From the NCBI GenBank assembly GCA_016219015.1, contig JACRCL010000008.1, positions 1 to 53,438 on the forward strand: a DNA stretch of 53,438 nucleotides, read 5' to 3'. The DNA is from Deltaproteobacteria bacterium. GTDB lineage: Bacteria; Desulfobacterota; GWC2-55-46. The translations under genes were made by a program, and so were the position numbers. Positions 2,116 through 38,386 of the stretch are shown piece by piece. The stretch's first letter is position 1. The number at the start of each line of letters is the position of its first letter. The notes beneath the pieces are model-generated. The model ran no database searches. It worked only from the letters and a program-made list of their open reading frames with translations, and was not told the DNA's origin.

Positions 2116-2325
2116 ATGAAACTACTTAGTATTAAAGAAATCTGCGCGCTCATTCAGGCAAAGCCCTCCACCATCTATCAGTGGGCGGAGCTCGGGCAGA
2201 TCCCGTGCTTCAAGATAAACAGTCTCCTGCGGTTCGAGGAAAGAGAGATCCTCGACTGGCTAAAGGACCAGAAAAGGGTGTATAATACCGGCCGTGCAGG
2301 TAGAGGGCCCGGAAAGGAGGTATAG
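2116..2325 (+). CDS. Excisionase-family helix-turn-helix protein
   Basis: A 69-residue protein from the ATG at 2116. An earlier in-frame ATG at 2071 would add 15 residues, but 2116 has AAGGA upstream and begins at the conserved MKLLSIKEI. The layout is typical of MerR/Xis-like excisionase DNA-binding domains: xLSIKEIxxLIxxKPSTIYQWxxxGxIP, then a wing ending in FEEREILDWL. It ends four bases before the integrase start, so the two are almost certainly co-transcribed. A recombination directionality factor beside an integrase is the standard arrangement in integrative elements. Confidence 0.8.
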   Translation: MKLLSIKEICALIQAKPSTIYQWAELGQIPCFKINSLLRFEEREILDWLKDQKRVYNTGRAGRGPGKEV

Positions 2326-2329
2326 GCAA

Positions 2330-3496
2330 ATGGGCCTCTACAAACGAAAGGACTCGCCGCACTGGTGGATGTCCTTCAGGGTCGAAGGCCGACGGATTTA
2401 TGAATCCACCGGCACGGAGAACAAAAAGCTCGCTCAGCGAAAGCACGCAAGCCGGTTAATCGAGCTGGAGGAAAGGCAACTCGGCTCACCAGCTAAGATC
2501 GATGGGAAGACGCCTTTTTGTGACCTCGCGAACCAGGTCCTAAAGTGGGCGGAATGGCAACGGGCCTACAAGGACAAGAAAACCCATGTCAAGTATCTCA
2601 TTGAGGCGTTCGGCAGGCTTGAGCTCAAGGATTTCACGACGCGAACGGTTGAGCTCTACTACCGCGGGTTTACCGATTCCGGCAGGACTGTCTCAACGGC
2701 AAACAGGTACCTTCAAACATTGAAGGCGATGTTCACCAAGGCCGTTGAATGGGAGCTGGTTGAAGAGGATGTCTTGAAGCGCGTGCGCCGGGTCAAGCTG
2801 TTGCCGGAGAACAACAGGCGCTTACGGTTCCTTTCAAGGGTGGAAGGGCAGGCACTTATAAACGCCTGCGAGCCGCACCTGAAGCCTATCGTGATAACCG
2901 CGCTCAACACCGGCATGCGTAGAGAGGAGATACTTTCCCTCGAATGGGGAAAGCATGTTGACCTGAAGCACGGGTTCATACTCCTCGACAGGACCAAGAA
3001 CGGCGAGCGACGCGAGGTTCCAATCAACCAGACCCTGAAAGGCGTGTTCCAGGGCCTTGTCCGGCACATCAACAGCCCCTATGTTTTCACGGACAAGGCT
3101 GGCAGGAGGTTCAGGGACCTGAAGCGGTCTTTTTCATCGGCTTGCAGGAAAGCGGAATGGGACAAATGTTCGGCCTGTAGCTTTGAGCGGCAAAAATCCG
3201 AGGGAGAGAACCCGGGCAATTGCCCTCAATGCGGCAAAGAGGTACTCCGGGTAGCCGGGCTCAACGACTTCCGCTTCCACGACTTAAGGCATACCTTCGC
3301 AAGCTGGCTTGTAATGGCAGGGGTAGACCTTACGACCGTGAGCAGGCTTCTTGGCCACAAGAGCCTGACGATGACGCTTCGGTACTCGCACCTTGCGCCG
3401 TCGCACATGGTAAAGGCGGTCGCTGTCCTTGAAAACGGTTACGATTTGGTTACGCTGGGTGAAAAAGAGGGTAGAGAACGACGCGCAACCCCATAA
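2330..3496 (+). CDS. Tyrosine site-specific integrase with internal zinc ribbon
   Basis: The start is the ATG at 2330, which has a near-perfect AAAGGAGGT site; this gives 388 residues. The N-terminus has a short beta-sheet arm (YKRKDSPHWWMSFRVEG), followed by a core-binding SAM-like domain. The catalytic domain shows the expected residues: Arg in NTGMRREEIL, then HDLRHTFASW (H-x-x-R), GHKSLTMTLRYSHL (His and the Tyr nucleophile). Between the first Arg and the HxxR box, at about residues 280-301, is an inserted CxxC...CxxC pair. The gene points at the 3' end of the initiator tRNA gene, a common attachment target. It probably catalyses integration and excision of the element extending leftward. 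Confidence 0.93.
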   Translation: MGLYKRKDSPHWWMSFRVEGRRIYESTGTENKKLAQRKHASRLIELEERQLGSPAKIDGKTPFCDLANQVLKWAEWQRAYKDKKTHVKYLIEAFGRLELKDFTTRTVELYYRGFTDSGRTVSTANRYLQTLKAMFTKAVEWELVEEDVLKRVRRVKLLPENNRRLRFLSRVEGQALINACEPHLKPIVITALNTGMRREEILSLEWGKHVDLKHGFILLDRTKNGERREVPINQTLKGVFQGLVRHINSPYVFTDKAGRRFRDLKRSFSSACRKAEWDKCSACSFERQKSEGENPGNCPQCGKEVLRVAGLNDFRFHDLRHTFASWLVMAGVDLTTVSRLLGHKSLTMTLRYSHLAPSHMVKAVAVLENGYDLVTLGEKEGRERRATP

Positions 3497-3502
3497 GCAG
3501 AA

Positions 3503-3545
3503 AGGCCGTAACCCCTTTATTTTCAAAGGAATTACGGCCTCAGGA
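3503..3545. terminator. Hairpin between integrase and tRNA
   Basis: Inverted repeat AGGCCGTAA (3503-3511) and TTACGGCCT (3532-3540), with an inner CCTTT/AAAGG pairing. It lies 7 bases after the integrase stop and just beyond the tRNA 3' end, so it can end transcription from both sides. There is no long U tract, so efficiency is uncertain. Confidence 0.55.
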
Positions 3546-3548
3546 ATT

Positions 3549-3629
<81 letters not shown>

Positions 3630-23985: not shown

Positions 23986-24612
23986 TCAGGTGGTCTTCTC
24001 GAGGATATAGTCTTTTAGCATCTTCTGGTCCTGGTGGTCGACCTTGTCGAACTTCACCCCGATAAGGGACCCGTTTATCCACATCACCTTCCCGTTTAGC
24101 TGAAAGTGGCCGACGGTGCCGGGCTCCCTGAAGTGTACGGTCAGCTCCTTCCAGAGCTTCCCCATGTCAGCCCTCCTGCCCGCGTCGATGCAGATGCCCG
24201 AAAGGCTTATGTTGACCACGTTCGCCTGGCTGAGGTTCGAGACGCCGGAAACGGCGTACTTCACGTCCGCGCTTTTCAGCTCGTACCTGGCGTTGTTCCT
24301 GCACCCGTCGAGCAGCTCCTTCAGGTTGGAGACGAACGAGGAGAGCGTCCTCGAGGATATCTCGTACGGCTTGCCGGCCCCGGCCTTCTTCCTTATCTCC
24401 GAGACCTCGTTTTCGGCCTCTATGAGGAGCCTTTTGTATTTGAAGATGTTCTTGCTGAGTATGTCCCTCGCGATGAGGAAGGAGCCCGAGGAGACATAGA
24501 TGTCCTTGACCTGTATCATCTCGGAGCAGGACGGGCACCGCGTCTCCTTCACTTCGGTCTGGAAGGGCAGGTGGACCCACTCGTTGCACTTCGTGCACTC
24601 TACCTTGAGCAT
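23986..24612 (-). CDS. Zinc-ribbon plus PilZ-domain protein
   Basis: A 208-residue protein. Residues 5-32 form a zinc ribbon (CTKC...CPSC). A helical middle (55-105) is followed by a PilZ domain: CRNNARYELK supplies RxxxR and NISLSGICID supplies NxSxxG. It is therefore a likely cyclic di-GMP sensor. Its ATG overlaps the stop of the RadC-like gene (TGATG), so translation is coupled. That makes an unusual pair of a c-di-GMP sensor with a catalytically degenerate RadC. Confidence 0.8.
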   Translation of the reverse strand: MLKVECTKCNEWVHLPFQTEVKETRCPSCSEMIQVKDIYVSSGSFLIARDILSKNIFKYKRLLIEAENEVSEIRKKAGAGKPYEISSRTLSSFVSNLKELLDGCRNNARYELKSADVKYAVSGVSNLSQANVVNISLSGICIDAGRRADMGKLWKELTVHFREPGTVGHFQLNGKVMWINGSLIGVKFDKVDHQDQKMLKDYILEKTT

Positions 24613-25430
24613 CAGCCCATTCCTTTCGGCAGGATGCGCGAGGGCTGCAACTCCGCGGCCATGGCGAACCCGGGGGTCTCCCCGAACCGCCAGCCGCCCT
24701 CCCTTGCGCTGAAATACCCGCCCTTGCCGGTCAGGATGTAATCGTGGACCAGGAGGTCGACCGCGAGCGCGGCCCTGTCGAGCACCTCAATTATCCTGCG
24801 GTACAGCCCGGGGTCAACTGCCTCTTTTCCCGGGCACATAAGCGCGAATACCACGGAGCGGGCGTTATGCTTGAACGAAAGCGAAACCGCCTTCCTTGAA
24901 AGCGCGGAAAACCCGCCCTTAATGGAGCCCTCATGGAGCACATCGATTGACAGGAACTCGTTCGCGGAGCTAAGGTAGATCGCGGCGAGCCTTTCAGCCT
25001 TCGGCGCGCCGATCCGCTTGAGGCAATATATCACATCCCCCTGTCCCCGGACTATATTTTTTTTCTTCGCCCTGTCCTTCAGATACAGGCTGGATACGCC
25101 CCCGACAAGCCGTAAAAGCGAGGCAGGCGCAGCACCCATGCCGGGGGCCGCCTCAAGCTCCTCCTGCGGGGCCTCCACGATGCCTTTAAGGGAGCCGAAC
25201 CTATTTAAAAGCCCCTTTACGGCCATGTCCAGCTCTTTGCCGGGCAGGGCGTAGGATAAAAGCAGCGAGAGCGCCTCTTTCTCCTGAAAGCTTTCAAATA
25301 ACGTCTTCTTTAAACGCCTCTTCGACAATCTTCCCCGGTGCTTATATTTTTTTTTGCAGGCAAGGTGGATTTTGCTTAAAGTGTATATATCATTCAAAAA
25401 CCATACCAGAATGATAACAATTAGGGTCAT
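24612..25430 (-). CDS. Degenerate RadC-family (JAB/MPN) protein
   Basis: The frame is 272 codons, but its first ATG (25430) lies inside a family B repeat, so the native start is further in; by comparison with the intact RadC it should fall around residues 15-35 (a TTG at 25328 is possible). The N-terminal helix-hairpin-helix part (LEAAPGMGAAPAS) and the VLHEGSI box of the JAB domain are kept. The metal site is lost: aligned without gaps to the RadC at 37372, His-Asn-His-Pro becomes LMCP (198-201) and the third ligand Asp becomes Tyr. The fold after it (VLDRAALAVDLLVHDYILTG) is well conserved, arguing that the protein is maintained. It is probably a non-enzymatic paralogue. Confidence 0.8.
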   Translation of the reverse strand: MTLIVIILVWFLNDIYTLSKIHLACKKKYKHRGRLSKRRLKKTLFESFQEKEALSLLLSYALPGKELDMAVKGLLNRFGSLKGIVEAPQEELEAAPGMGAAPASLLRLVGGVSSLYLKDRAKKKNIVRGQGDVIYCLKRIGAPKAERLAAIYLSSANEFLSIDVLHEGSIKGGFSALSRKAVSLSFKHNARSVVFALMCPGKEAVDPGLYRRIIEVLDRAALAVDLLVHDYILTGKGGYFSAREGGWRFGETPGFAMAAELQPSRILPKGMG

Positions 25431-25531
25431 TCTGAGGAGCCGCGGGCGACGAAGAATCTTGTAAACTGTTGTATAGAGATTCTTCCCCTTCGCTTCGCTC
25501 GGGGCTTTGGCTCACACGCTCAGAATGACAG
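25426..25531. repeat. Family B palindromic repeat, copy 4
   Basis: GTCATTCTGAGGAGCCGCGG to CTCAGAATGAC, with GAAGAATCTTG and AGATTCTTCC inside. It touches the open 5' end of the degenerate radC frame and supplies its first ATG. Confidence 0.8.
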
Positions 25532-25913: not shown

Positions 25914-26065
25914 GCATAAAAAAAGCGCGCCCGCAGATGTGCTAGTGGCTTCCAAGGAGGCCACCCCGATACCTCACGGTACAGGGCATCTGCGGGCGCG
26001 CGTGCGCCCACATTGAGCCACCTCTGTCCATGAAGACAGGGGTAGCCCCTTGGAATTACTAGCAC
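25914..26065 (-). ncRNA. Candidate riboswitch/attenuator or structured sRNA
   Basis: On the minus strand the predicted transcript starts at the outer stem. The 5' arm 26065-26042 pairs with 25939-25964: GTGCTAGT/ACTAGCAC, CCTTGGAA-type 8 bp, GGC/GCC, then CCCC/GGGG with small internal mismatches. Inside are three hairpins: CTGTC/GACAG, GGGCGC/GCGCCC and TACC/GGTA. A competing perfect 15-bp stem (25987-26001 with 25925-25939) followed by seven T forms an intrinsic terminator. Its 5' arm sits inside the first fold, so the two are mutually exclusive unless a pseudoknot forms. It resembles no riboswitch class I can name. A 48-base spacer with an AGGAGGTG site leads to the 85-residue gene. Confidence 0.7.
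25918..26001 (-). terminator. Intrinsic terminator within the structured leader
   Basis: Perfect 15-bp stem GCGCGCCCGCAGATG / CATCTGCGGGCGCGC (arms 25987-26001 and 25925-25939), then seven T on the minus strand (25924-25918). The 47-base loop contains half of the alternative long stem. Confidence 0.8.
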
Positions 26066-26070
26066 TAAAA

Positions 26071-26099
26071 AATATAACAAAGAGACGTTAGGATGTCAA
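26071..26099 (-). promoter_or_regulatory. Sigma-70-type promoter of the structured RNA
   Basis: On the minus strand, TTGACA (26099-26094), a 17-base spacer, then TATATT (26076-26071). A start about seven bases later falls at 26064-26065, exactly at the first base of the outer RNA stem. The agreement supports both calls. 26100-26342 upstream holds no gene. Confidence 0.8.
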
Positions 26100-37371: not shown

Positions 37372-38106
37372 TTAATCTTCCGCCGCCCTCCGCAGACTCA
37401 CCGGGCACCCTATGATCCAGCCGTTGTCCCTCGCGCTGAAATGCGCGCCCTTGCCGATTATCAGGTGGTCGTGCACAATGAGGTCGACGGCGAGGGCGGC
37501 CCTGTCGAGGACTTTGGTCAGCTGCCTGTCCACGTGCGACGGCGTGGCGTCCCCGCTCGGGTGGTTATGGACGAAGATTATTCCACTCGCGTTATGCTTG
37601 AACGCCCTCTCTATCGCCTTCCTCGGGTATACGGCCGTCTGGTTTATCGTGCCCTCGTGCAGCACCTCGACGGCCAGCACCTCGTTCCGGGCGTTAAGGT
37701 ATATCGCCAGGAACTTCTCCACCCTCTCCCCGGATAGCTTCATGTTCAAGTAATCTATCGCCTCTTTAGGCGAACGGATTATGTCCCTGCCCATCATCCG
37801 CTCCTCCAGGTATATGCCCGCCATCCCCTTAAAGAGCTTGACGAGCACCGCGGCGCTGCCTTTTATCCCGGGTGTGGACTCAAGCTCTTCCATGGAGGCA
37901 TCGAAGACGCCCCTGAACCCGTTGAACCTCTGCACAAGGGCCCTGGCCGCCGTAGCGGTGTCGCCGGGCATGGCATAGGACAGCAACAGCTCGAGGGTCT
38001 CCGAATCGCTCAAACCCTCGCACGGGCTTTTCCTGAACCTCTCTTTAAGCCTCTTTATCTGCTCCCTGCCTGAGACGCTTTTTTCAAGTGCGCTGGTATC
38101 GCTCAT
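37372..38106 (-). CDS. radC: RadC-family (JAB/MPN+) protein
   Basis: A 244-residue protein from the ATG at 38106 (MSDTSALEK); the frame is open to 38145. The N-terminal helix-hairpin-helix part (LSDSETLELLLSYAMPG, LESTPGIKGSAAV) is followed by a JAB domain. The metal and catalytic residues are intact: VLHEGTI, then VHNHPSGDATPSHVD. Despite its name the role of RadC in repair is unproven; JAB folds are metalloproteases or deaminase-like enzymes. It is the intact relative of the degenerate copy at 24612. Confidence 0.92.
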   Translation of the reverse strand: MSDTSALEKSVSGREQIKRLKERFRKSPCEGLSDSETLELLLSYAMPGDTATAARALVQRFNGFRGVFDASMEELESTPGIKGSAAVLVKLFKGMAGIYLEERMMGRDIIRSPKEAIDYLNMKLSGERVEKFLAIYLNARNEVLAVEVLHEGTINQTAVYPRKAIERAFKHNASGIIFVHNHPSGDATPSHVDRQLTKVLDRAALAVDLIVHDHLIIGKGAHFSARDNGWIIGCPVSLRRAAED

Positions 38107-38386
38107 CTCGTTGAAGGACTGACCGGAGGGACTCTCCGGTCCCAAATGGGCTCAAATGGGCTGCGGCGCTGCGGCGCCCGTATAAGGCTTTAAGGCCCAG
38201 GCTGATCCCTCTTGTCCACCCCCTTCCGCTCTTTTGGAAAACCCGCGCAGGCCCTCTCAAAGAATCTGCGAGGACGCCGTCGATTTTATGGATGGGGTGA
38301 TTATAAGAAATCCCAGGCCCGTTTTCGCCTGTCCCTTCGTACAGGCTCCAAAACTTTTTATTTTACAACTTTTCGCTATCGAAGTG

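Follow-up and report, generated by a model that had tools for sequence, protein, structure and literature searches.

A probable C4-type antisense RNA locus, divergent and phage-derived, with mutually exclusive terminator and antiterminator folds

The minus strand of the window (the whole stretch of 53,438 nucleotides that was analysed) carries, from 26099 to 25618, a promoter, a leader RNA, a putative terminator, a ribosome-binding site and an 85-codon gene. Based on a chain of covariance-model matches and on its anatomy, this element is very probably a phage-derived C4-type antisense RNA locus, divergent and distantly related to the C4 RNA of phage P1; the kinship was demonstrated computationally, and the mechanism is one that we infer. 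Among regulators of phage immunity, C4 RNA is a classic; it acts on translation and keeps phage P1 dormant. As judged from the sequence, the locus would not be an undescribed riboswitch; what sets it apart is a C4 stem that would double as an intrinsic terminator, placed directly before a gene that is usually not icd-ant.

Layout of the leader and its two folds

A sequence-only reading had proposed for this region a TTGACA-N17-TATATT promoter, a closing stem around three hairpins and a competing terminator, followed by a ribosome-binding site and an 85-codon gene. The promoter is present at 26099-26071 (sigma-70 type, 11 of 12 consensus positions), and the RNA would start at about 26066. About 0.8 promoter-like sites are expected in the whole 1.3-kb region; a TTGAC-type -35 box stands at the matching position and at the proper distance before most other copies, the promoter being outside the covariance models.

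The transcript would open with site a1 (26065-26058), the 5' strand of the outer closing helix P1a, and site b1 (26055-26048), the 5' strand of the inner closing helix P1b, which pair with a' and b', respectively. The leader hairpin P2 (26048-26015), supported by folding and covariation, separates b1 from the C4 domain; the U-run that follows it in many other members and in phage P1 is absent from the window copy. The C4 domain is closed by stem T, with its 5' arm at 26001-25987, and encloses hairpin H1 (25986-25965), capped by a GUGA tetraloop, and hairpin H2 (25964-25945), with a 10-nt loop. The H1 loop was of the GNRA type in all copies inspected. Strand b' (25957-25950), the complement of b1, lies in the H2 loop and a' (25946-25939), the complement of a1, in the joint that connects H2 to the 3' arm of T, both at the positions that they hold in the phage P1 c4 RNA. 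The candidate intrinsic terminator (25939-25918) comprises the 3' arm of T (25939-25925) and a U-run (25924-25918) also found in other members; the perfect 15-bp stem with seven T described earlier was confirmed, on the minus strand. The ribosome-binding site (AGGAGG, 25887-25882) and the gene (25875-25618) follow as had been stated. Since the gene starts 43 bases past the last T of the U-run, there is hardly room for another promoter. From the sequence, a terminated RNA would be complete at about 148 nt.

The leader RNA was far more stable than its shuffled versions (z = -7.9 with the 3' arm and -9.1 without it). In one fold, with an energy of -90.1 kcal/mol over the entire RNA, the first 18 bases (26065-26048) are paired with 25957-25939; when the terminator was enforced, the 15-bp stem 26001-25987/25939-25925 formed around two hairpins (-82.7 kcal/mol). 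As modelled, the 5'/3' pairing and the terminator fold would be nearly isoenergetic, and the two folds are mutually exclusive because they have bases in common. The b' strand of P1b is the H2 loop and the neighbouring a' touches T, so that both supported states compete. The plain minimum-energy fold of the window copy was a single long imperfect hairpin; thus, of the closing stem said to enclose three hairpins, the 5'/3' stem stood and the multiloop did not. A three-hairpin multiloop was the predicted pre-terminator fold of some relatives, such as G016 and G022. Growing-prefix folding, in which copies were folded stepwise, predicted the closing helix P1 before the terminator arm exists. Because the long hairpin is the stabler of the two folds in the window copy, termination would need help there, which counts against the reading that we favour below. 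By position and complementarity, the closing helix of the earlier description is the pairing of a1/b1 with a'/b', and its terminator is the C4 closing stem. 6S RNA was discarded as an identity, the hairpin being long but lacking a central bubble.

Relatives and covariation of both pairing states

A DNA search returned one close copy in a different genomic setting (G039, 81% identity) and two core fragments in G049. A covariance model built from the DNA-search copies (R1) retrieved G016 and G006. The model R2, built from the window clade alone, retrieved G022 within the class and G179, G376, G165, G364, G374 and G330 within the phylum, and R3 added ten further full copies, none of which had entered a model (G460, two in G464, G236, G477, a second copy in G376, G463, G544, G555 and G173). 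Altogether, there were at least 20 full homologues in the same phylum, and 21 full copies were aligned including that of the window. As the phylum search scored seven candidates per genome, this copy number is a lower bound; the model searches covered one phylum, many of the genomes being metagenome assemblies. On reading the sequences, we have dropped the candidates of G103, G170, G281, G313 (L086) and G013 (L064) as chance matches and that of G447 as uncertain. No relatives were found in viral contigs by sequence patterns or proteins, on plasmids, or in phages by DNA or protein search, where the sole match, of 21 bases, was ascribed to chance. The two partial copies of G049 (L052, 6371-6475 and 7362-7393) lie about 930 bases apart and adjoin a PglZ/BrxA-like gene pair, BREX-type by eye, and a VapBC-like pair; the contig ends within the second copy, as at a repeat.

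Over the 21 copies, 91.1% of the cells of P1a, P1b, P2 and H1 were paired and the covariation score was 0.635, shuffled alignments giving 0.158 (0/500) and slid versions at most 0.117; part of this P1/P2/H1 signal arises by construction since the alignment was fitted to the modelled helices. T and H2, which lie outside the model, were 87.2% paired and scored 0.461 versus 0.174 shuffled (0/500). All seven pairs of P1a (86.7% paired) and all eight of P1b (99.4% paired, with changes on both sides) covaried, as did 8/9 pairs of H1 and 4/5 of H2 (stem 90.3% paired). In a four-copy alignment made without structure, the inner closing helix kept its 8/8 pairs in 4/4 copies, five of them changing on both sides.

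Strands were also exchanged between copies, using fixed windows chosen independently of complementarity. Native strands paired better than exchanged ones for both P1 and T (0/20000 permutations each), and likewise when only the ten copies unused in the models were taken (P1, z = -5.4; T, z = -6.6; 0/20000 each). The earlier claim that the closing stem and the terminator compete was borne out by the bases that they have in common, by the covariation of both states across the 21 copies and by the agreement of the permutation tests; the homology search that had been suggested as a check yielded relatives in which P1 and T pairs change with compensation. We consider a terminator/antiterminator switch quite likely. 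A coding origin of the conservation was rejected, as reading frames differ between copies, and so was an integron attC site, for which no fitting R'/R'' boxes were seen by eye and in view of both pairing states covarying as RNA.

Kinship to C4 RNAs and genomic setting

Three relatives (G376, G464a and G477) scored above the cut-off of the Rfam c4-2 model (45.6-47.3 bits versus 41), the matches spanning exactly T-H1-H2. The window copy gave no Rfam match, including with the C4 and c4-2 models, the cut-off being a criterion for detecting a member and not for its function, and R3 fails to retrieve the c4 of phage P1. Hence, membership rests on the anatomy and on the chain that leads from the window through R2 to the G376 copy (E 1e-6, E-values of covariance models being rough) and on to c4-2, which matches this same G376 stretch at 45.6 bits. 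The former statement that the RNA resembles no known riboswitch class agrees with the lack of any Rfam model matching the window copy. A strong match to a known family, named beforehand as what would speak against novelty, was obtained for the relatives and not for the window copy. The claim of an undescribed class was not supported: three relatives match c4-2, and the parts, a1/b1 included, are arranged as in the c4 leader of phage P1.

In the phage P1 record, the order is promoter, a1 (7 nt), b1 (8 nt), the 77-nt c4 RNA, a2/b2, icd and ant; Rfam detects C4 and c4-a1b1 in this leader, the upstream a1/b1 sites being annotated only as putative for C4 RNA. The P1 c4 fold consists of a closing stem, a tetraloop hairpin and a hairpin with b' in its loop, a' lying in the joint, and between b1 and c4 phage P1 has a hairpin with a U-run that matches P2 and the U-run of many copies here. 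For the window copy, the three-stem C4 domain with its tetraloop and b'-loop hairpins was recovered in the terminator-enforced fold and by covariation, and the upstream a1 and b1, complementary to a' and b', by the pairing and covariation of P1a/P1b. Some of these observations may already stand in the original c4-2 description.

Many relatives lay in prophages or beside integrases, replication genes or Bro-N antirepressors. In nearly all full copies, the element was followed within about 50 nt by a gene and its ribosome-binding site; these genes were unrelated between members and mostly of phage. An integrase stood directly downstream in G463 and G555 and one small gene later in G544, G330, G376 and G022, whereas Bro-N-like antirepressors followed in G179, G364 and G460. 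The downstream gene of G165 preceded phage replication genes including a DnaB-like helicase, a possible repressor was seen in G173, and the other copies had small unknown proteins. G179 and G364 were Mu-like by their transposase, phage structural genes lay near the copies of G330, G179 and G016 (with a terminase in G330, and a tape-measure protein and an integrase in G016), and the G016 and G006 copies were both in prophage-like elements. The window and G039 copies stand alone: that of the window has no flanking phage genes, and its gene is not an antirepressor, a downstream gene that is usual in P1/P7 though not a defining trait of the clan.

The product of the 85-codon gene gave no Pfam, NCBIfam or convincing PHROG match and has homologues in G039 (47%), G036 (38%) and G046 (28%). 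This small protein family (window 25875-25618; L002, L007, L008) numbers four members across 63 genomes of the class. It also occurs where the RNA element is missing: in G036 and G046 its genes neighbour MscS- and peroxiredoxin-like ones. In G016 (L066, 12216-12299), a second gene stands behind a duplicated leader 3' end comprising a', the T3 arm, the U-run and the ribosome-binding site, a duplication that suggests an exchange of cargo genes by recombination behind a kept leader. Elsewhere in the window we have noted two RadC-like genes (24612-25430 and 37372-38145), the first shortened or divergent and downstream of the element; an inverted-repeat-like stretch between the small gene and this RadC-like gene (25420-25530, GTCATTCTGAG... 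/ ...TCAGAATGAC), which resembles a dispersed genomic repeat; and a likely integrase gene directly beside a tRNA gene (2294-3625), which may mark the border of an integrated element. A sub-threshold int-alpA RNA match (L104, 197-264; 33.0 bits, cut-off 35.8) lies about 1.3 kb from the second G376 copy.

Proposed control and comparison with known systems

From the computed promoter, exclusive folds, covariation, c4-2 kinship and mobile setting we infer transcription, termination, action in trans and the direction of the switch as follows. The leader transcribed from the promoter would carry the targets a1/b1 and then the C4 domain (stem T around H1 and H2), T and its U-run forming an intrinsic terminator. 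In the nascent RNA, its own a1/b1 would pair with a'/b', T would be blocked, and the polymerase would read into the gene. Existing C4 RNA, in terminated or processed copies, would instead occupy a1/b1, so that the new transcript would fold T and stop. The gene would be on at the entry of the element into the cell and off after C4 RNA had built up. Such C4-type antisense-controlled attenuation, with C4 RNA favouring termination in trans, is the reading that we hold to be rather probable; control by C4 RNA in trans, taken as such, we regard as evenly balanced.

Attenuation is favoured because the competition of a1/b1:a'/b' with the terminator is conserved everywhere, and a'/b' are, overall, weakly complementary to the ribosome-binding site of the gene. 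The latter bears on classical C4 action, by which a processed C4 domain would block the ribosome-binding site in trans and the terminator would set only the RNA 3' end. RNAs of the C4 clan are characterised by RNase P processing and action in trans. In P1/P7, C4 RNA blocks icd translation: b' masks the ribosome-binding site, and specificity comes from a' (PMC5320573). This precedent (PMC5320573; phage P1 record) and the strong complementarity seen in G039, G179 and G364 (-23 to -28 kcal/mol) argue for the same action here, but across the 21 copies native pairs were hardly better than exchanged ones (-14.3 versus -13.1 kcal/mol; 751/20000, and 2175/20000 without G039), the two matches of the window copy run in reversed order relative to a1-b1, and a terminator right before the gene would be needless. 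We regard it as unlikely. It is very improbable that the gene is nearby by chance and that the leader works by itself, as a small RNA directed at other phages or at RNAs of the host: the complete ~148-nt RNA that the terminator would yield and the strong expression of Acinetobacter C4-like RNAs (PMC5320573) would suit it, but the position of a gene with its ribosome-binding site so close to nearly all full copies, with little space for another promoter, would not.

The sequence-only reading had favoured a ligand- or protein-controlled terminator, as in usual riboswitches and attenuators. Its competing terminator and antiterminator were upheld, and with the conserved GNRA hairpin they would be compatible with such control; a metabolite riboswitch was rejected given the unrelated, mostly phage genes downstream and the absence of any Rfam riboswitch match, and a riboswitch or ribosomal leader had no Rfam support. 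The conserved strands are, moreover, the mutually complementary ones, and the kinship is with an antisense RNA, which leaves protein or ligand control quite improbable. Attenuation by a leader peptide, i.e., a translated short ORF covering the 5' arm of T, would fit the GGAGG-N9-11-ATG found just before this arm in one clade (G376, G464a, G236, G477, G330, G555 and G173). No such start was found in the window clade, G165 or G374, however, and frame and length vary between close copies such as G555 and G173, making this reading extremely improbable. The short frame-variable ORFs of that clade (L079, L096, L097, L098, L085, L106 and L107), which follow P2, read, for example, MAFCISGNISPE....

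In these divergent copies, both the a1/b1 pairing and the terminator that excludes it are conserved, and integrases are among the genes that would be controlled. More tentatively, at somewhat less than an even chance, C4 RNA acting in trans on the nascent a1/b1 would flip the leader from its built-in antiterminator to the terminator of its own stem and control integrases, antirepressors and replication genes across the prophages of the phylum. If true, C4 RNAs would have a second mode of action and the a1/b1 sites a function; the switch would let a prophage detect, simply and by RNA alone, that it has already become established. The reach of the C4 clan is widened to copies that the Rfam models miss.

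The locus resembles the C4 RNAs of P1/P7 (RF01695, RF03163) in its promoter, in a1 preceding b1, in the hairpin with a U-run, in the three-stem C4 domain with its tetraloop, in b' lying in a hairpin loop and a' in the joint, and in the gene downstream. It differs in that the sequences are too distant for either model to detect the other, in that the C4 stem is here followed by a U-run and would by itself be an intrinsic terminator, right in front of the gene, and in having no clear a2/b2 in most copies, genes usually other than icd-ant and hosts of another phylum. With c4-2 RNA (RF02944, clan CL00128) it has in common the register in which three relatives exceed the cut-off and a model that also ends in U's, but the Rfam model is limited to the C4 domain, without a1/b1 or the alternative fold, and leaves the window copy undetected. 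IsrK of the Salmonella prophage Gifsy-1 (RF01394) has its own promoter, a leaky terminator, read-through into the antirepressor mRNA and two competing folds (PMC4825925), and is in these respects a similar prophage RNA; its control, however, is at the translation of orf45-anrP (PMC4825925) and its structure is different. Against the window, RF01394 scored 9.3 bits (E 4.8, cut-off 50). In phage P1 (L108, 3230-3311), isrK reached 35.1 bits (cut-off 50) on the hairpin and U-run between b1 and c4. To judge from sequence, a common origin of IsrK and the C4 leader is possible. Plasmids pT181 and pIP501 use antisense-induced attenuation, the antisense RNA coming from the opposite strand. The logic proposed here is alike, with an RNA in trans acting on the nascent leader to favour the terminator over the antiterminator, whereas the antisense RNA would be the leader's own 3' part.
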